Shown here: positions 1,139 to 9,662 of the stretch, piece after piece
Position numbering within the stretch: the stretch's first letter is position 1
Layout: every line of letters begins with the position of its first letter
Assembly (NCBI GenBank): GCA_016928395.1
Contig: JAFGKV010000227.1
Coordinates: forward strand, 1-9,778
Source: Candidatus Fermentibacterota bacterium
GTDB taxonomy: Bacteria; JAFGKV01
Length of the DNA stretch: 9,778 nucleotides
Direction: 5' to 3'
Notes under the pieces: model-generated
Database searches by the model: none
Told to the model about the DNA's origin: nothing
The model's input: only the letters and a program-made list of their open reading frames with translations
Program-made: the position numbers and the translations under genes

Positions 1139-2917
1139 TCACTCCGAAGAGGGCAGGATGAAGACCGAGGACTCCCTGCGGCGACCTTCCTCAGCCATCA
1201 TGCGACGCACCGCCAGGATCCCTTCACCATCAAGCCATCCGGCATCTAAGCGGCAGAATCTCCGCATGCGTATCAACTCCGGCGTGTGCACGGTTGCGGC
1301 CCTGAGACTGCCGATATCCGTGGTGATGGCAAGCGAATCAGAACTGCATATCACCTCAAGCTCCTCGCTGCGGGCGATACGAAGCTCGCTGATCAGTTCA
1401 ACGTCAGCCGGGATGAGCACCGGCACTCGAGGAATTACGTCAGACGCCGCGACACCGGCAGGAACCCAGTCACTGCCAAACCATGCCTCCATGCACTGAT
1501 CGATGAGTATCCCTTCTCCCACGGGCATGGCGCCCTCGAATCGATACCTCAGGTCATCATCGCAGATTCTCTCGCATACGAACGCCAAAGTGGCGCCCTT
1601 CACGATCCGCTTCAGCCGAGGACCAAGCCACCCGTCGGGGGCGGCGCGGTCAACACCGTCCGGAACGAGCGAAGCCGACACGGTGATGGATCCCCGCACC
1701 CGCATGCTATCCGCGCCACTCTTCGCCAGCGTCAGCACGGCGTGACCGCGACGGATCACCGGATCGGCACCTCGCACCGGATCACCCCCCACGGTGAGGG
1801 GAAGAAACCCGAACGGCCCGGCGACGCGGGGCAACTGGCGCGGCTCGGTCAGGTTCAACCACCGCGGAACCGACTCGCGCACCCTGACCCATGCTTCAGG
1901 CAAGAGGCTGGTCACTGGGGGCATCCCGGCGGGCAGAGCGTCTCCCACGAGGCAGACAACCGCATCATATCCGGCGCTACGGGCCGATACCGCCACAAGC
2001 CAGGCCGCTTCCAGAGGCTCCGCATACCCCGAGGCGTACACTCTGGAAGGATCGCGGCAGGTCCAGAACCGCCGGTCTGGCGCAGGAACCAGGTGCACAG
2101 CCGCCCTCGCGACATCGACCACGACCTTCAACGTCTCATCGCGGGTCACGGCAGTACGCAAACCCACCCCCAGGCTTTCTGCTGCCTCCCGGGCCCAGAG
2201 GCTGTCCTCAGGGAGCCGACCTGCCCACCAACCTGCAAGCTCGGGCCAGCTCGGGCAGGTCGATAGTACCAGGCGGGGCTCCACCGTGTGTCCCGAGGGT
2301 CCCCTCTTCGAGGGGTAGGCCGGCAGGTCATTGAAGTGCCACGACGACGCACTGGCGTCGGTCCCCAGCGAGCAGCCCTGAGCATTGCAGAGTGCCCACG
2401 CCAGAGGCTGTGATCCATGATTGTCCACGGTGATCATGCGTCGGAGTACCGGATGGATGTCGCCGAGGGGAATCACCGCCTCGTACCACGGCAACAGCGT
2501 GGAATCCACCACCTCGTATTCCACCACGATCTCCACTCCCTCCTCAACCCCGGGCGGGCTCACCACCAGCTCCCTGCACGAGACGAAATCCGGGGCCGTG
2601 CCATAGGCGCCCGGCGTCACGAGATTGAAGGCGTGAGGTTGGGCCTGCACCTCCGTGCCATCGCTGCGCAGGGCGGCACATCGGATAACACGCACTGTCT
2701 GATGCGGTATGACGTACCCGATACGAAAGTCGGAATAGTCTTCACGCCCGACAATGGAAAGCGGCCGTGTCACGCGCCGATGCCACGTGATGGAGCGGCC
2801 ATCGGACAGAATCGACACGCGGGTTTCGTGCTCAACAATCACCACGTCATCCTCGGGAAACCGCGCCTGCCACGGGTCAGCGGCGCCCACTATCAGCAGG
2901 AGAACCCACGCGATCAT
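1139..2917 (-). CDS. DUF3857-domain protein with degenerate transglutaminase-like domain
   Basis: This 592-residue secreted or periplasmic protein has a hydrophobic start (MIAWVLLLIVGAADP) consistent with a signal peptide. Residues about 25-210 resemble DUF3857, with beta-rich sequence, a SDGTEV turn and a WYEAVIP segment. Residues about 255-360 align by eye with the transglutaminase-like domain of the upstream neighbour, but all three catalytic positions appear substituted: Cys to Ala299 in SGYAEPL, His to Glu341 in EAWVRV, and Asp to Asn355 in WLNLTE. It is therefore probably not a protease or transglutaminase and may be a binding or structural paralogue. The remaining C-terminal 230 residues have no motif I recognise. 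The ATG overlaps the upstream stop as ATGA, and GGAGG (2930-2926) lies 8 nt before it. Function and substrate are unknown. Confidence 0.8.
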   Translation of the reverse strand: MIAWVLLLIVGAADPWQARFPEDDVVIVEHETRVSILSDGRSITWHRRVTRPLSIVGREDYSDFRIGYVIPHQTVRVIRCAALRSDGTEVQAQPHAFNLVTPGAYGTAPDFVSCRELVVSPPGVEEGVEIVVEYEVVDSTLLPWYEAVIPLGDIHPVLRRMITVDNHGSQPLAWALCNAQGCSLGTDASASSWHFNDLPAYPSKRGPSGHTVEPRLVLSTCPSWPELAGWWAGRLPEDSLWAREAAESLGVGLRTAVTRDETLKVVVDVARAAVHLVPAPDRRFWTCRDPSRVYASGYAEPLEAAWLVAVSARSAGYDAVVCLVGDALPAGMPPVTSLLPEAWVRVRESVPRWLNLTEPRQLPRVAGPFGFLPLTVGGDPVRGADPVIRRGHAVLTLAKSGADSMRVRGSITVSASLVPDGVDRAAPDGWLGPRLKRIVKGATLAFVCERICDDDLRYRFEGAMPVGEGILIDQCMEAWFGSDWVPAGVAASDVIPRVPVLIPADVELISELRIARSEELEVICSSDSLAITTDIGSLRAATVHTPELIRMRRFCRLDAGWLDGEGILAVRRMMAEEGRRRESSVFILPSSE

Positions 2918-4860
2918 CGTCTATTCCTCCCGGTGGTGCACATCACGCGCTTCGCGGCCCGGCCGGTGAGCATGGACGATGCCTCCGCCACGGCCTTGAA
3001 CTCTTCGGGAGTTAAGTAGCGGTTCATTATCCTGCCCTCCACCGTGGTGCGAAAAATCCGTCCGTTGATCGCCGTCTTCAGGGAGAGGCGAACCGGTCCC
3101 CGATCGAACGAGATCGCTGCCGTGTCGGGATTCACCGGAGAGTATCCTCTGGGGAGCCGAAGGGCCTCCGAGGCATCCTCCCAGCGGGTGGCCCAGATCA
3201 ACGCCGGATTCTGCCGGGCTCCTTCGCGGGCGTAGCGTGAGAGTGCCGAGAGCTTGGCCCCTTCCGTGAGCAGGGCCAGAAGCGGCTGCCTGAACACGAG
3301 AGCACGCCCATCAACCAGGGCGTAGCCCGGAGCCTCGAACTCAATCCTCAGCCGGAAGGGCTTCCATAGATCGTCGGGGTCAGAGTGGGTGACCCCGGTA
3401 ATCCGTACCGACGAGCCCAAACCTCTCAGATAGGAGGCGAACAGGGCGTCGCGCTCCGCCGGACGCCGGTACGCCAACTGACGGCGGTAGTTGGTCTCGT
3501 AGTTGCCTAGAGGCTCGATGAGAAACACACCCGACAGGTCGCCACGTTCAGACACGCCGCACTCGAGACGCCACGACACGCGGTTGTCCTCGTCGAACAG
3601 GGGCATCTGCATCAGCGTGCCGCCTTCAGGCGATCCGATGACATAATGCTGATGGCCTTCCGAGCGGGACCAGTGGTAGGCGGAGTATGCGCACCATGTC
3701 GGATCCAGCATGAAGAACGATCCGTCCGAACGGCGCACCGCGACGACGCAGTGGTTGAACTGGTCGGCCGGGATGTCCTCCACTCTGGCCCCGGCCATGG
3801 TCATTACCGGATAGGTTTCGTATCCCGCTACCCTGAGCATTGCGACCAGCATGCCGGCCAAGTCCTTGCAGACACCGGAGCGCTCGGAGAAGATCATCTC
3901 CGCAGGGTGCAACGTGTACCCTTCGCCCTCACCCATGGAGAGCCCGGAGTACCGAATATGCGTCGCCACCCATTGTTGGAGGGCAAGGAACCGGTCCTCG
4001 TCCCGGCTGAATGCGTTGATAAGGGCGTGCGTCCGTTCGGCGATGGCTTCCGTGGGGGCGAATTGGCCTTCATTGGTCTCGTGAAACCATCGGGCACGAG
4101 CCGGCCAATTCTCCAGTGTGGAGAGCACGACCTTGGGAAGAAAATCCGATGCATCCGCCGAGAATGCTTCCCGTGGTACGGCAGGGAGATCTCTGGCGGT
4201 CCAGGTATAGACGAGATGTGCGCCTCGGAAACGGACTGAGTCGTTCAGATCACCATTGTACTCGGCAAACTGCACGGGTTTGCCCCGAGGCATGATGAGC
4301 TGGTAGGTCTTCTCCAACACCGGATGCCCTTCGCCAAACACCACCACATCGTAGAATTCGCCCTCCTGGGGCGGCACAAACTGTGTCGAGGGAATCTCAC
4401 CAGCCAGATAGGCGATCTGGTAGCCGACGCGATGCGTCCACACCTCCAGCGCCTCGCCTGGTCGCAGCATGCCCATGTCATACAGCCGCATCCGTGCCCC
4501 CCAGTAGATGCCATCGGCCGGCGCTTCCGTGTCAACACACTCATCCAGGTTGACGAAGCGGCTCGTGCCGTCGCTTCCGTGCACTATCGCCTTGACGATG
4601 CGATGGTCATTGGCGCGGGAGTCATAGTCGACCCGCTGCACCCGGGCAGCCCGGGCCTCATCGGCGTCGAGATACGTGATCAGGGTGTGGCGGCGAAAGT
4701 GGCCCCTGCCGCTGTCTTCGACCTCCACGAGAGTGCTGTCAAATACCACGACGGCCTCGGCGCCCGCCGCGCGACCGACGCTGTCGGCCCGCAGGCACGC
4801 CGTGCGCACAGCATCCGGAGTAGGATCTGCAACCAGGAGAAGCAGCAGCACATGCAGCAT
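2914..4860 (-). CDS. DUF3857 and transglutaminase-like domain protein
   Basis: This 648-residue protein probably acts outside the cytoplasm, since it begins MLHVLLLLLVADPTPDA, a short signal-peptide-like segment. The N-terminal part (about 30-225) fits DUF3857, and residues about 270-400 form a transglutaminase-like (papain-like fold) domain. The catalytic triad is visible: Cys331 in RSGVCKDLAG, His370 in FNHCVVAV and Asp386 in MLDPTW. Such domains act as cysteine peptidases or in amide-bond exchange, and the substrate here is unknown. The C-terminal part (about 400-648) is probably beta-rich and ends with the segment LTPEEFKAVAEA. The start is supported by AAGGAAGGGG 5 nt upstream of the ATG. 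It overlaps the next gene by 4 bp, and the two products share architecture, so they probably work together. The gap upstream is 219 bp, suggesting a transcription unit separate from mraY. Confidence 0.85.
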   Translation of the reverse strand: MLHVLLLLLVADPTPDAVRTACLRADSVGRAAGAEAVVVFDSTLVEVEDSGRGHFRRHTLITYLDADEARAARVQRVDYDSRANDHRIVKAIVHGSDGTSRFVNLDECVDTEAPADGIYWGARMRLYDMGMLRPGEALEVWTHRVGYQIAYLAGEIPSTQFVPPQEGEFYDVVVFGEGHPVLEKTYQLIMPRGKPVQFAEYNGDLNDSVRFRGAHLVYTWTARDLPAVPREAFSADASDFLPKVVLSTLENWPARARWFHETNEGQFAPTEAIAERTHALINAFSRDEDRFLALQQWVATHIRYSGLSMGEGEGYTLHPAEMIFSERSGVCKDLAGMLVAMLRVAGYETYPVMTMAGARVEDIPADQFNHCVVAVRRSDGSFFMLDPTWCAYSAYHWSRSEGHQHYVIGSPEGGTLMQMPLFDEDNRVSWRLECGVSERGDLSGVFLIEPLGNYETNYRRQLAYRRPAERDALFASYLRGLGSSVRITGVTHSDPDDLWKPFRLRIEFEAPGYALVDGRALVFRQPLLALLTEGAKLSALSRYAREGARQNPALIWATRWEDASEALRLPRGYSPVNPDTAAISFDRGPVRLSLKTAINGRIFRTTVEGRIMNRYLTPEEFKAVAEASSMLTGRAAKRVMCTTGRNRR

Positions 4861-5076: not shown

Positions 5077-5096
5077 CCCTCAGCGCACCTTGAGGG
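5077..5096 (-). other. Hairpin overlapping the mraY stop codon
   Basis: CCCTCA (5077-5082) pairs with TGAGGG (5091-5096) around an 8-nt loop, and the TGA stop of mraY (5082-5080) lies inside the stem. No U-run follows on the minus strand, so it is a weak terminator candidate at best. It might instead stabilise the 3' end of the mur transcript. Confidence 0.3.
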
Positions 5097-6189
5097 ACAC
5101 GAGACTGATGACCATGAGCAGACCTGATACGATCCAGAACCTGACCGCGATCTTTGTCTCGGCCATGCCCATGTACTGGAACGTGTGGTGCAACGGTGCC
5201 CGATAAATGATCCGTCGTTTGAGAATCCGAAGACCCACCCAGTCCTGGAGCACCACCGAGAGCACCTCCGCGAGGAACACTCCGCCCGCCAGGAGGAAGA
5301 GCACCTCTTGACGAAGCAACGCCGCCAGGGTACCCAGCACCCCCCCCAGGGGCAGAGACCCTGCATCCCCCATGAAGACCTCCGCCGGGTAGGCATTGTA
5401 CCAGAGAAACCCCACCGACGCGCCAACCATCCCCGCACAGAAAATGGCCAACTCCCCTGCGCCTGGCATCTTGATGAACTGCAGGTAGGAGCTATATACT
5501 TGGTTTCCCAGGACATAGCCGAACACTCCGTAGACAGCCGCCACGAAGAAGGCCGGCACCACCGCGAGGCCGTCGAGGCCATCGGCGAAGTTTACCGCAT
5601 TGGCGGCAAACGTGATGATCAGGGCCGTGAGCAGAACCGATCCCCATCCCAAAGTGGCCACCGGCGTCTTGACAAAGGGAAGCTGCAACACGTCGCGGAG
5701 TTCGGGCGGTAGGGGGCTTGTGGCCGGCAGATACAGAATGATGCCCAGCCCGATCCCAAACACGGCCTGCAGGCCGAACTTTGGCCACCGGCTGAGACCC
5801 TTCTCAGAGTCACGGTGGCGGTTCTTCTTCAGATCGTCCACCAGGCCCAGGGCCGAAAACCACACCAGCGAACCCCCCACGAGGAGTACGTAGGGATTGG
5901 AGAGATCGCACCACAACAGCGCGGCCACGGCGGTGGCGACCACGATAATCACGCCGCCCATGGTCGGGGTGCCACGCTTGCCTGAGACGTCGATAACGCC
6001 GTAGTCTCTGACGCGGTCCGTGAGCCCTGCACGGAACAAGGCCAGAATGCCCCGTTGTCCCGCCAGGACACTGATAGCCAGCCCCGTAAGGGCGGCAAAC
6101 ATGGCCCGACTCGTGATGTAGTTGAAGAGCCGGAGGAAGGAGAATGGACCATCTGGTTCGAAAAATGAATCGTAGAGCAGGTTAAGCAT
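5080..6189 (-). CDS. mraY: Phospho-N-acetylmuramoyl-pentapeptide-transferase
   Basis: MraY transfers phospho-MurNAc-pentapeptide from UDP to undecaprenyl phosphate, making lipid I on the inner face of the cytoplasmic membrane. The 369-residue length is normal, and the sequence shows many hydrophobic segments consistent with about ten membrane helices. Family motifs are in order: KRGTPTMGG (71-79), the aspartate pair D118-D119 in VDDLKK, NAVNFADGLDGLA (197-209) with D203 and D206, FMGDAGSLPLGG (272-283) with D275, and the C-terminal histidine motif PLHHTFQ (332-338). The usual motif is HHH followed by F/Y-E/Q; here the third His is Thr336. The ATG overlaps the end of murG by 8 bp, with GAGGG about 9 nt upstream, so translation is probably coupled. 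In this operon it follows murG rather than preceding it. Family identity is secure. Confidence 0.95.
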   Translation of the reverse strand: MLNLLYDSFFEPDGPFSFLRLFNYITSRAMFAALTGLAISVLAGQRGILALFRAGLTDRVRDYGVIDVSGKRGTPTMGGVIIVVATAVAALLWCDLSNPYVLLVGGSLVWFSALGLVDDLKKNRHRDSEKGLSRWPKFGLQAVFGIGLGIILYLPATSPLPPELRDVLQLPFVKTPVATLGWGSVLLTALIITFAANAVNFADGLDGLAVVPAFFVAAVYGVFGYVLGNQVYSSYLQFIKMPGAGELAIFCAGMVGASVGFLWYNAYPAEVFMGDAGSLPLGGVLGTLAALLRQEVLFLLAGGVFLAEVLSVVLQDWVGLRILKRRIIYRAPLHHTFQYMGMAETKIAVRFWIVSGLLMVISLVSLKVR

Positions 6190-8194
6190 GATCGTGTGCC
6201 CTCAAAGCCTGACTCAGGAGCGCCAGCGAGTCCTTCAGCTCGAACAAAGGCCTGAAACCAGTGGAGGTAAGGAGAAGGCCGCGGATCGCCCCCTCAATTC
6301 TCGTTCGGTCCTGGGGCGACAACGCATCCCTGTTTGCCAGCCGGCGAAGCCCGTCCACCGCTGCGGCCCTCACCTTCCAGTTTGGATCGAGAAAGCGGCC
6401 GATGAGCAGAGACGCGGGTGCCTCACCTTTGTCTACCTCGCCAAGAGCGGCCAGCGCCGCGGCGCGCACTTCGAAACGGGGGTCACCTGTCAGCGTCCGA
6501 ATCATGGCGACGATCTCGACATCCGCCCGCACCGGCGCGGCCAAACCCATTGCCAGACGGCAGCCCGCGCTTCGAATCTCGAAGTAGCGATCCTGGATCG
6601 CATATACGATGGCGCCGCGGACGGCTTCGCTCCAGACACCGATTCCCGCCAGGGCCGTCAGGGCATTCCGCCGGATGAAACCGTTCTCCTCATGGAGAAG
6701 GCCCGCCCAACGCTGCCACCGCGTGGGGTGGCGACGCCGCTGCACCACCAGAGAGGCGATAAGGTCCGCACGCTCGGCATGGCCTAATGCGCCCGCCAAC
6801 TTCACTCCCCAGTTGCGCTCCTCCCATTTCGATGAAGCCAGATACCCATCCGTGCGGTACTGGAGGTATGCCCGCTCTTCGATGGAGAGCGCAACGGAGC
6901 CCTTCCCCCGGGAGACGACACGGGCCAACAACGCTGAGGCGGAAAGCGCGGTGAGGGGCTCGACTGCACCGTCGATGGTCGGCCACGCACTCATGGGAAC
7001 AGGTGCCTCGGGAAGCACTCCTCGTGCCAGGCTGACTATCATGTGAGCCAAACGCGACGCCGCATTGGGGGTTGCCAAGGATTCCGCCTTCTTCGCCACG
7101 CGCGCCCGGCGCCCGGGATCGGCCAGCAGATCGAGTACGCGGGCGGCCAGCTCATCAGGCGGGAGGTAATCGACCACGCCCCCATCCGTCCTCAACGGGC
7201 GTTCGTACAGAATCTCAGCGGCGCCCGCGGCCTGCAGCGCCAGGGCATTCTTGACCTGATGATCCCCCGGGAGGTTCGCCTTAGGCACCAGGAGAGCCGC
7301 TTTGCCCATGACGCAGAGCTCGTTCAAGGTGCCCGCTCCTGCCCTGCTGACAACAAGATCCGCGGCGGATAGATACACTGCGATGGGATCCAGATAGTCG
7401 AGCCTGCGATACCGCGCCGGATCGGGTGGAACCGCCAGTGCGGCCACGGCGCGATTGGTATCAGCCACCGGATCATACCCGCCCCCCATGGGGCGCCCGG
7501 TGGCATGAATGACGAGAATCCCCTCGTTCGCGGTCAGGGCAGGCAGTGCTGCCACGATGCCGCGATTCAGAGACCGCGACCCCAGGCTTCCACCGAAAAC
7601 CAGCACGACCCTCCGGTGCCCATCGATGCCCAGATCACGGCGGGCATCTTCCCTCGGCAGCGGAGTAGTGATTCGTGCCCGTACCGGATACCCCGAAACC
7701 AAGACGCGGCCCGCGGAGAAGTAACCCGCGGCGGACGGGTAGGTCGACGCGATCACCGTGGCCCAGGATCCGGCGAGGCGATTGAGCCTGCCCGGCACCG
7801 CATTCTGCTCGTGGAGCAACACCGGGACCCGTGAGATGCCAAGCCTGGTCAGCAGGTGGTTCGCCATCACCACGGGTGCGGAGACATACCCGCCCGTGCC
7901 GACAATCACGTCGGGCCGCCACCGCCGTAGCAGGAGCATGGCCTTCCCCACGCCCGCGGCCATGGTCAACCCGAATCTCATGAGCGCCGCCGGCGATGTA
8001 CCCGCGGGAAGACCCCTGGCGCATACGAAACGCAGGGGGATTCCGGTGGGTGGCACCAGCTCCGCTTCTGCCCTTCCCCTCACACCGACATAGAGAAACC
8101 GGGCTTCGCTGTCTTTGGAGCGAACATGCTCCGCCATTGCCAGGGCGGGATAGACATGACCGCCGGTCCCGCCTCCGGTAAGCAGGTAGTTCAC
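6182..8194 (-). CDS. murG: MurG glycosyltransferase fused to a C-terminal HEAT-repeat domain
   Basis: MurG adds GlcNAc from UDP-GlcNAc to lipid I to form lipid II at the inner membrane face. Residues 1-395 are a full GT-B MurG: the glycine-rich loop TGGGTGGHVYPA (6-17), VGTGGYVSAP (98-107), LHEQNAVPGR (127-136), FGGSLGSRSLN (200-210), SRAGAGTLNEL (283-293), and GDHQVKNA (310-317) for donor binding. The normal enzyme (about 360 aa) would end near residue 391, but the frame continues to 670. Residues about 455-620 contain at least four helical repeats of HEAT type: GFIRRNALTALAGIG (505-519), FEIRSAGCRLAMGLA (538-552), FEVRAAALAALGEV (574-587), WKVRAAAVDGLRRLA (606-620). The linker (396-440) is Pro/Ala-rich. 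I chose the GTG at 8194 because the family starts just before the glycine loop and it lies 4 bp after the cca-like stop, with a GA-rich stretch upstream. A partner-binding role for the extension is inference. Confidence 0.92.
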   Translation of the reverse strand: MNYLLTGGGTGGHVYPALAMAEHVRSKDSEARFLYVGVRGRAEAELVPPTGIPLRFVCARGLPAGTSPAALMRFGLTMAAGVGKAMLLLRRWRPDVIVGTGGYVSAPVVMANHLLTRLGISRVPVLLHEQNAVPGRLNRLAGSWATVIASTYPSAAGYFSAGRVLVSGYPVRARITTPLPREDARRDLGIDGHRRVVLVFGGSLGSRSLNRGIVAALPALTANEGILVIHATGRPMGGGYDPVADTNRAVAALAVPPDPARYRRLDYLDPIAVYLSAADLVVSRAGAGTLNELCVMGKAALLVPKANLPGDHQVKNALALQAAGAAEILYERPLRTDGGVVDYLPPDELAARVLDLLADPGRRARVAKKAESLATPNAASRLAHMIVSLARGVLPEAPVPMSAWPTIDGAVEPLTALSASALLARVVSRGKGSVALSIEERAYLQYRTDGYLASSKWEERNWGVKLAGALGHAERADLIASLVVQRRRHPTRWQRWAGLLHEENGFIRRNALTALAGIGVWSEAVRGAIVYAIQDRYFEIRSAGCRLAMGLAAPVRADVEIVAMIRTLTGDPRFEVRAAALAALGEVDKGEAPASLLIGRFLDPNWKVRAAAVDGLRRLANRDALSPQDRTRIEGAIRGLLLTSTGFRPLFELKDSLALLSQALRAHDHA

Positions 8195-8198
8195 CGGA

Positions 8199-9662
8199 TC
8201 ACCGCCCTCTCTCCCCGTTGCCTTCCCTCGGCGACGAGTCAGCCCTGCCCGCTGATGGCTCGGCAAGCACCCGTTCCTTCAGCACACTCACGTCCTGGAT
8301 ACCCTCCTCGATCTGGATTTCATACGCTCTCCGCAGCAATGCACCCATCCGGGGGCCCGGCGTTACACCCTCCTGCAACAGATGCCTCCCCAGGAGCAGA
8401 GGCTCCACAGGCTGGTTTAGGACTCCCGCCTCCCGGGCCGCGGCCAGGAGCCACTCACCGGCAGGAAACGCGCCATTCTGACGCGCTCCCGAACCTCGGT
8501 AGTCGGCTCTGCTGCACCGCTCAAGAAGCACGATATCGGTCTCCGGCGCCAGGCGGCGGGCGAGCCGGCGCACCGCAGCCAGCGTCGATGATTGGCCGTG
8601 GAGGAAGTCCGGCGTGAGGTGCCACCGTACCAGCTTCTCGACACCGGCAATGATAGACCGGTCCTTTGTGAACCTTGTCAAGAAGCGCGAGGCCAGGGCG
8701 ACGCCGGCCTCGGAATGACCCATGGATCTGATACGACCATCCCGAAGTCGGGTGGTGCACACCTTGCCGAAGTCGTGGCACAGCACCCCGAACATGAGTA
8801 CCAGGTCTCTGCGCGAATCACCTGTGCGCAGTGACACGGCGGCGTCAAGGCTGGCGAGCACATGTTCCCAGACATCACCCTCCGGGTGCCAGGTCTCGTC
8901 CTGCGGCACCCCAACCAACGAGGCGACCTCGGGCAGAAACCTGATCCAGCCGGTGATGAGAAGAAAACGCAGTCCCAGACTCGGAGCGCGCCCCAGGAGC
9001 ATCTTGGCCAGTTCTCCGAACACCCGCTCGGCGGGGAGGTTCTCGGCGCCGACCTGCCGGGCACATTGGATGAGTCTCGGGCTGGGAGTCAGAAGAAAAC
9101 GGGAGAGGAACTGGGCGGCACGCAAGACCCGCAGCGGATCGTCACCGAAGCGTCTGGGGTCCACAACTTCCAGAAGCCCTGACCGGAAATGCGCCTCTCC
9201 GTTCCATGGGTCAAGCACCTCCATGGTGAAGGGGTCAAATCCCATGGCGTTCATCGTGAAGTCACGGCGGTGCGCAGCCTCTTGGAACGGCATGTCGGGG
9301 ACCGCCTCCACAGCGAAACCCCTGTGTCCAAGACCAGTGAGGGAATCTCGACGGGGAAGGGAGAACTCCACGTTCGCTCCCTCTACCTTGTACACGGCGA
9401 ATGCCTTGCCCGCCAGAACCAGGGGGACCATGGAACCAAGCACCTCCTCAAGGGTTTCGGCGCACATCCCCACGACCTCTATGTCGATGTCGGCAGATTC
9501 TCCGCCCGCCACCAGGTCTCGGACCCACCCGCCAACAATCATCGGGCGAGCTCCCTCATCACGCAACCGCTGCACCAGGGCATGCAGAGTGGGACCACCA
9601 GCGAAGACAGGACGCTGCAATACGGCATGGACTCGGTCGGCGACTTGACTATCCATACGCAC
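8199..9662 (-). CDS. cca: CCA-adding enzyme / poly(A) polymerase-family nucleotidyltransferase with HD domain
   Basis: This class II nucleotidyltransferase belongs to the family that adds or repairs the CCA end of tRNA, or polyadenylates RNA. Visible motifs: GGWVRD (44-49), the metal-binding DxD at D58/D60 in ADIDIEV, RRDFTMNAM (132-140), and DDPLRVLRAAQF (174-185) of the neck region. The HD-type metal phosphohydrolase domain follows, with H267 in WEHVLASL and H296-D297 in CHDFGK. The length (487 aa) exceeds E. coli Cca (412), and the last 20 residues form a polar, probably disordered tail. CCA addition and poly(A) synthesis cannot be told apart with certainty from sequence; since the one tRNA here encodes CCA, the role may be repair. 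GGAGG (9673-9669) is 6 nt from the GTG at 9662 and 12 nt from an ATG at 9656, so GTG is favoured but not proven. Confidence 0.85.
   Translation of the reverse strand: MRMDSQVADRVHAVLQRPVFAGGPTLHALVQRLRDEGARPMIVGGWVRDLVAGGESADIDIEVVGMCAETLEEVLGSMVPLVLAGKAFAVYKVEGANVEFSLPRRDSLTGLGHRGFAVEAVPDMPFQEAAHRRDFTMNAMGFDPFTMEVLDPWNGEAHFRSGLLEVVDPRRFGDDPLRVLRAAQFLSRFLLTPSPRLIQCARQVGAENLPAERVFGELAKMLLGRAPSLGLRFLLITGWIRFLPEVASLVGVPQDETWHPEGDVWEHVLASLDAAVSLRTGDSRRDLVLMFGVLCHDFGKVCTTRLRDGRIRSMGHSEAGVALASRFLTRFTKDRSIIAGVEKLVRWHLTPDFLHGQSSTLAAVRRLARRLAPETDIVLLERCSRADYRGSGARQNGAFPAGEWLLAAAREAGVLNQPVEPLLLGRHLLQEGVTPGPRMGALLRRAYEIQIEEGIQDVSVLKERVLAEPSAGRADSSPREGNGERGR

Follow-up and report, generated by a model that had tools for sequence, protein, structure and literature searches.

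The 9,778-nucleotide stretch of DNA analysed here (hereafter the window) raises the question of why MurG, an essential glycosyltransferase of cell-wall synthesis, should carry a long C-terminal HEAT-repeat tail in an uncultured bacterium. An earlier note, made from the sequence alone, had pointed to an uninterrupted fusion of a complete MurG with at least four helical repeats, and had proposed that the tail could recruit the lipid II machinery or, alternatively, components of the divisome or elongasome, or a regulator. The features of the locus are collected in Table 1.

Table 1. Features of the murG::HEAT locus (positions in the window; residues of the encoded protein)
Feature	Positions	Strand	Details
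mraY	5080..6189	minus	369 aa; TIGR00445 276.9 bits (cut-off 192); 8-base overlap between its start and the murG::HEAT stop
MraY C-terminal loop variant	5158..5202	minus	APLHHTFQYMGMAE in place of APxHHHFExxGW; typical of HEAT-linked MraYs
murG::HEAT gene	6182..8194	minus	670 aa; GTG start, stop 6184-6182; full-length relatives in same genus and family
MurG glycosyltransferase domain	7025..8194	minus	residues 1-390; PF03033, PF04101; GGTGGH, HEQN, E292 and DHQ..NA kept
Linker	6962..7024	minus	residues 391-411; poorly conserved; pN 0.53 versus same-genus sequence; pLDDT 71-88
HEAT-repeat alpha-solenoid (predicted)	6188..6961	minus	residues 412-669; approximately 15 helices; Pfam, AlphaFold, VIA-align
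Family signature GF(I/V)RRN	6665..6682	minus	residues 505-510; F, the second R and N identical in all 46 members
C-terminal family signature TSxxFxPxFxLK	6233..6268	minus	residues 643-654; F, P and F conserved to at least 90% among 46 members
tRNA nucleotidyltransferase/poly(A) polymerase-family (CCA-type) gene	8199..9662	minus	upstream of murG::HEAT; PF01743, PF12627

The frame is open over all 670 codons, with zero internal stops, and the same MurG-HEAT architecture is found in independent genomes, so that the uninterrupted fusion can be taken as established. Both GT28 domains score above their Pfam cut-offs (N domain, residues 4-149, PF03033, 90.7 bits; C domain, residues 196-380, PF04101, 85.8 bits). 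In the alignment with E. coli MurG (1F0K), H13 and E292 of the window protein correspond to H19 and E269, while N131 lies within the HEQN motif; the catalytic and donor residues (H19 and E269 equivalents, HEQN) are invariant across 42 relatives. The description of the N-terminal 395 residues as a complete MurG thus stands as far as the donor motifs are concerned, but the boundary has to be moved: MurG ends at approximately residue 390, and the solenoid starts only at approximately 412, after the linker.

Against the NCBIfam model TIGR01133, the window MurG reaches 212.4 bits, which is still its best family match but lies under the curated cut-off of 250 bits. The same cut-off is missed in 10 of 11 HEAT-bearing genomes and in 5 of 14 control genomes, and since low scores are common to the HEAT genomes and some controls, they suggest a diverged branch and not another function. 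With a score below the cut-off, the case for MurG activity rests on the conserved residues and on the lack of a second strong candidate. The other GT28-C match in the window genome is weak (39.6 bits versus 89.2 bits for murG::HEAT), and for this reason the product of murG::HEAT is very likely the only MurG of the cell, its enzymatic activity being inferred. Given that so many HEAT genomes fall under the equivalog cut-off, automatic annotation may misname their murG genes.

The tail is predicted with high confidence to be a HEAT alpha-solenoid. It exceeds the Pfam cut-offs for HEAT (PF02985, 32.5 bits, cut-off 23.5) and HEAT_2 (PF13646, 32.4 bits, cut-off 27.7), with the best stretches of both at residues 548-620. 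AlphaFold models the whole 670-residue protein with a mean pLDDT of 91 and a pTM of 0.88 (pLDDT 93.5 for the tail alone), and residues 412-669 are helical throughout, mostly with pLDDT above 85, in keeping with the expectation of an alpha-solenoid after residue 440. Among solved structures, the closest to the tail model in VIA-align are the alphaRep HEAT proteins (Z 18.6, 190 residues, rmsd 2.5-3.1); as these are designed proteins, the likeness bears on the fold and not on function. The pattern [WF]xxRxx[AG] occurs four times in the tail, at residues 457, 538, 574, and 606, with a fifth, looser copy at 506 (FIRRNALTALAGIG). In 20,000 shuffled tails, the mean was 0.35 copies and four copies were reached in 0.025%, so that the repeat motif noted after MurG exceeds chance. 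Comparison with the same-genus sequence (pN 0.28, pS 0.68) indicates purifying selection on the tail.

We define the MraY-linked HEAT family by GF(I/V)RRN, D-x-Y-[WFY]-E-[VI]-R, TSxxFxPxFxLK, and an mraY gene directly downstream, and the window has every one of these marks. The fold and the repeat consensus are shared with other HEAT proteins such as the alphaRep designs and the bilin lyases CpcE/CpcF and NblB. Matches of the family to the bilin lyases are weak, however (16-32 bits versus cut-offs of at least 200), and what sets it apart from other HEAT proteins are its own GF(I/V)RRN and TSxxFxPxFxLK motifs and a lipid II gene context throughout. A bilin lyase role was considered for the window tail and rejected (NblB 16.7 bits versus a cut-off of 300; no CpcE/F match).

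Could an assembly artefact or a frameshift have joined two genes? The window assembly is fragmented, with 343 contigs, yet the full-length architecture recurs in many independent genomes. Fusion proteins with 65% and 52% identity over the whole length are present in the same genus and in the same family (Candidatus Fermentibacteria), respectively, and the fusion is also found in the cultured isolate Desulfoferrobacter suflitae DRH4 (L121) and in a single-chromosome metagenome-assembled genome (MAG; L112, CP070735.1). Because the fusion recurs in independent assemblies, a missed stop or frameshift near position 7000, named beforehand as a possible refutation, is ruled out, and with the selection on the tail as a further argument, we regard an artefact as barely conceivable.

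To see how widely the tail occurs, its profile was searched against 386 genomes with a threshold of E <= 1e-10. Thirty genomes match, of which 28 carry the family once 2 genomes with generic HEAT proteins are removed; the matches set aside as generic (G238, G336, and G044:C10) score approximately 43-46 bits. Three of the 28 represent the genome, the genus, and the family of the window, and outside that family, the HEAT family is present in 25 of 383 sampled genomes. Named genomes, scanned with an alignment (A2) closer than the first (A1), yielded 43 loci, from Fermentibacteria, Latescibacterota, Gemmatimonadota, Zixibacteria, Glassbacteria, Myxococcota or unclassified Deltaproteobacteria, Thermodesulfobacteriota (including D. 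suflitae DRH4), Acidobacteriota, Aminicenantes, Planctomycetota, and CSSED10-310. The Gemmatimonadota label may be wrong, since those loci cluster with Latescibacterota. The module spans at least 8 bacterial phyla, with the proviso that species sampling is uneven and some loci are near-copies. Judged by these sequences, the tail is a widespread, old HEAT family and not an isolated oddity. One small group (G095, G233, and G362) has low tail scores of 64-70 bits and keeps the architecture in both members examined. In G233, G362, and probably G095, the tail is strongly diverged and lacks W..RN and GFIRRN, but the fusion to MurG and the mraY gene behind it are retained (L092, 5994-8024; L091, 7903-9903).

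The place of the family beside mraY is constant. In 61 of the 63 loci whose sequence extends far enough to judge, mraY lies directly downstream of HEAT on the same strand (57 by the gap to the MraY domain, and 4 with an N-terminally extended MraY ORF starting there), so the remark that MraY is encoded next holds not only for the overlapping genes of the window. The remaining 2 loci (G083 and G353) have MurG::HEAT without an adjoining mraY. As a control, MraY was found within 1.5 kb in 2 of 24 murG loci without HEAT. At G053, mraY only seemed to be missing because of the way ORFs had been picked, and is in fact present. Apparent HEAT::MraY single-chain fusions in L124 and L131 were discarded: the HEAT match is in another frame, and the length of the MraY ORF comes from a spurious, GC-rich extension. 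MraY ORFs with an N-terminal extension of approximately 230-280 residues straight after the HEAT stop are seen in L074, L076, L094, and L095, possibly reflecting an extra domain or a late start.

Upstream of mraY, several arrangements exist. The commonest is that of the window, murG::HEAT followed by mraY. In G057 and G331, murG, HEAT, and mraY are three separate genes, and in G044, G321, G189, G221, G079, and L134, HEAT is a gene of its own before mraY without an adjoining murG; the murG of G044 is elsewhere, with ftsW, murD, and murC. The flippase MurJ can also be part of the chain (1,199-1,347 residues), either as MurJ::MurG::HEAT in Desulfobacterota (approximately 1,200 aa) or as MurG::MurJ::HEAT (G316, L125, and L132), again followed by mraY. 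The MurJ parts are genuine (Pfam 253-275 bits; for L112, 274 bits versus TIGR01695 with a cut-off of 235.6), and in the single-chromosome MAG, no MurJ was found apart from the fused one, and no strong MurG match apart from the fused MurG. In L127, MurJ::MurG::HEAT is split over two frames, probably through an assembly error. The locus L129 is truncated by the start of its contig, and its MurJ::HEAT may or may not be preceded by MurG. A free murJ adjoins the module in L102, L128, and G002; in the last (L036), which is related to the window, the order is CCA-murJ-murG::HEAT-mraY, with murJ between the CCA gene and murG::HEAT. The best MurJ of the window genome is encoded on a different contig. 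The MurJ search gave no match in G009 (listed as 100% complete) and weak ones in G057 and G326 (33-44 bits), with MurJ found in 12 of 14 control genomes; these three genomes may have a lipid II flippase of another kind. In three genomes (L033, 4365-6237; L084; L086), the standalone HEAT-mraY pair is part of a conserved string with scpB, a rluB/rsuA-type gene, guaB, and guaA.

According to the HEAT tree, MurJ::MurG::HEAT arose once and MurG::MurJ::HEAT at least three times, i.e., MurJ has been fused with the HEAT module at least four times and in two orders. The MurG::HEAT link is retained in most lineages, the standalone HEAT genes cluster (90/80), and the Fermentibacteria tails have their closest relative in G316, with MurG::MurJ::HEAT (96/88).

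Since HEAT adjoins mraY across phyla and has repeatedly been fused to MurJ, it probably holds three steps of the pathway together as one machine. The reading we favour, and consider likely though well short of certain, is that, through HEAT, MurG and in many cases MurJ are docked onto MraY, giving a complex for lipid II assembly and export, in which binding and channelling are inferred. The tail would be a dedicated scaffold of lipid II synthesis. Its primary partner would most likely be MraY, as in some genomes HEAT lies beside mraY with murG elsewhere, and contact would probably be made via the cytoplasmic loops of MraY. Covalently joined to HEAT, MurG would be kept where MraY releases lipid I, which could then go to MurG without loss by diffusion; in MurJ-fused lineages, the lipid II made by MurG would be handed to the flippase. 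The whole case rests on sequence and a predicted single-chain structure. The sequences themselves show the fusion, the family at its fixed place beside mraY, the recurrent MurJ fusions, and corresponding MurG and MraY subfamilies; enzyme activity, the binding of HEAT to MraY, the bringing of MurG or MurJ to MraY, and any speeding or channelling of the reaction are all inferred. Of the roles put forward earlier, recruitment of the lipid II machinery is strongly favoured by the gene neighbourhood and the independent MurJ fusions, with physical binding still an inference. Published accounts describe an interaction of MraY and MurG in both E. coli and Caulobacter, as well as natural fusions among Mur enzymes (PMC6420597, PMC5039524, PMC4929429).

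The enzymes themselves divide along the same line. A 100/100 branch of the MurG tree parts 53 HEAT-linked MurGs from 24 others, and the MraY tree has a branch of the same support between 23 other MraYs and 58 HEAT-linked ones, among them those with standalone HEAT. For both trees, the root is undetermined and only sampled sequences are covered, so that HEAT-less members could exist outside the sample. The module marks a deep MurG/MraY split, which standard annotation may miss because HEAT-linked MurGs fall below the NCBIfam cut-off. The third His of the MraY HHH loop is present in 22 of 22 non-HEAT MraYs versus 2 of 48 HEAT-linked ones, in which HHH reads HH[ATS], the E that follows is replaced by Q, and GW has L, I, or V in place of W. 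This C-terminal loop is cytoplasmic and lies near the active site. According to a review, the first and fifth cytoplasmic loops of MraY probably contact other pathway proteins (PMC5039524). As the loop change maps to one tree branch, it represents a single event, which agrees with the HEAT link but is not independent proof of contact. An even call, in our judgement, is the further-reaching view that HEAT is an old and so far unnoticed part of lipid II biogenesis in a wide range of bacterial phyla, a scaffold that is the mark of a distinct MraY-MurG lineage and that links MraY, MurG, and MurJ physically.

In the main rival reading, HEAT would be chiefly an accessory or regulatory subunit of MraY, acting on stability, activity, or lipid-substrate binding, with MurG fused merely as its gene neighbour. 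MraYs without an adjoining murG share the altered loop and the side of the tree, the HEAT genes of their own listed above stand beside mraY without murG, and the family-invariant W, N, K, F, R, D, Y, and E positions exceed what a plain solenoid needs. Where HEAT occurs with mraY alone, bringing MurG to MraY cannot be its sole role. Against such a subunit speak at least four MurJ fusions in two orders and the MurG::HEAT link kept in most lineages, and we consider this explanation unlikely, if by no means negligible. In different lineages, both the scaffold and the regulator could be true.

Recruitment of MurG to the elongasome or divisome (MreB, FtsZ, FtsW) instead of to MraY has less to recommend it. 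In other bacteria, MreB and division proteins are binding partners of MurG (PMC6420597, PMC4929429), and the HEAT gene of L134 lies between ftsW and mraY. In the other loci, though, mraY is the constant neighbour, the recurring fusion partners are MurG and MurJ, and no FtsZ or FtsA match was found beside the module with references that did not include MreB. The corresponding proposal of the earlier note has thus gained no supporting evidence, and we hold it to be improbable. Even less convincing is a tail that merely anchors MurG at the inner membrane face, or is inert. MurG is a peripheral membrane protein (PMC5039524) and several Arg and Lys positions in the tail are conserved, but separate HEAT genes beside mraY have no MurG to anchor, MurJ is an integral membrane protein that needs no anchor, and the strong position-specific conservation of HEAT does not fit; this idea appears very improbable.

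With the scaffold as the preferred reading, how does the module compare with known systems? Like E. coli MurG (GT28; 1F0K/1NLM), the window protein has both GT28 domains with the catalytic and donor motifs and is the only strong MurG match in its genome; it differs by the 260-residue HEAT solenoid and the score below the NCBIfam murG cut-off. Compared to ordinary MurG, the HEAT-linked form is on a separate branch and is followed by mraY instead of murC. Natural fusions such as MurE-MurF of Bordetella, MurG-MurC, FtsW-MurG, and MraY-MurG likewise join pathway enzymes covalently and are taken as a sign of multienzyme complexes (PMC6420597, PMC4929429). Here, by contrast, the enzymes are linked by a non-enzymatic HEAT family, which in other genomes has a gene to itself, and the flippase MurJ takes part as well; the passages found on Mur fusions mention neither. 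The same three enzymes appear in sequence in the hand-over model for MraY, MurG, and MurJ (PMC5039524, PMC9046198), in which substrate hand-over has been explained by lipid affinity gradients (PMC9046198), whereas we propose a physical scaffold. No HEAT family joining MraY, MurG, and MurJ, and no MurG or MraY with HEAT repeats, was found in the literature searched, which was covered in part; such architectures may already lie unremarked in domain databases. Whether a physical MraY-MurG-MurJ complex exists is a long-standing question that has been hard to settle in model bacteria, and stable natural versions apparently exist, with MurJ, MurG, and the HEAT scaffold in one chain and mraY adjoining. 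The MurJ::MurG::HEAT chains are ready targets for cryo-EM and coupled assays in a pathway that is an antibiotic target.

Downstream of mraY, the window has two overlapping DUF3857 genes on the minus strand (1139-2917 and 2914-4860), the longer with a transglutaminase core, which are probably unrelated to murG::HEAT. Towards the contig end follow a gene for an HU/IHF-type DNA-binding protein (713-988, minus) and a tRNA-Arg (CCG) gene (457-534, minus).
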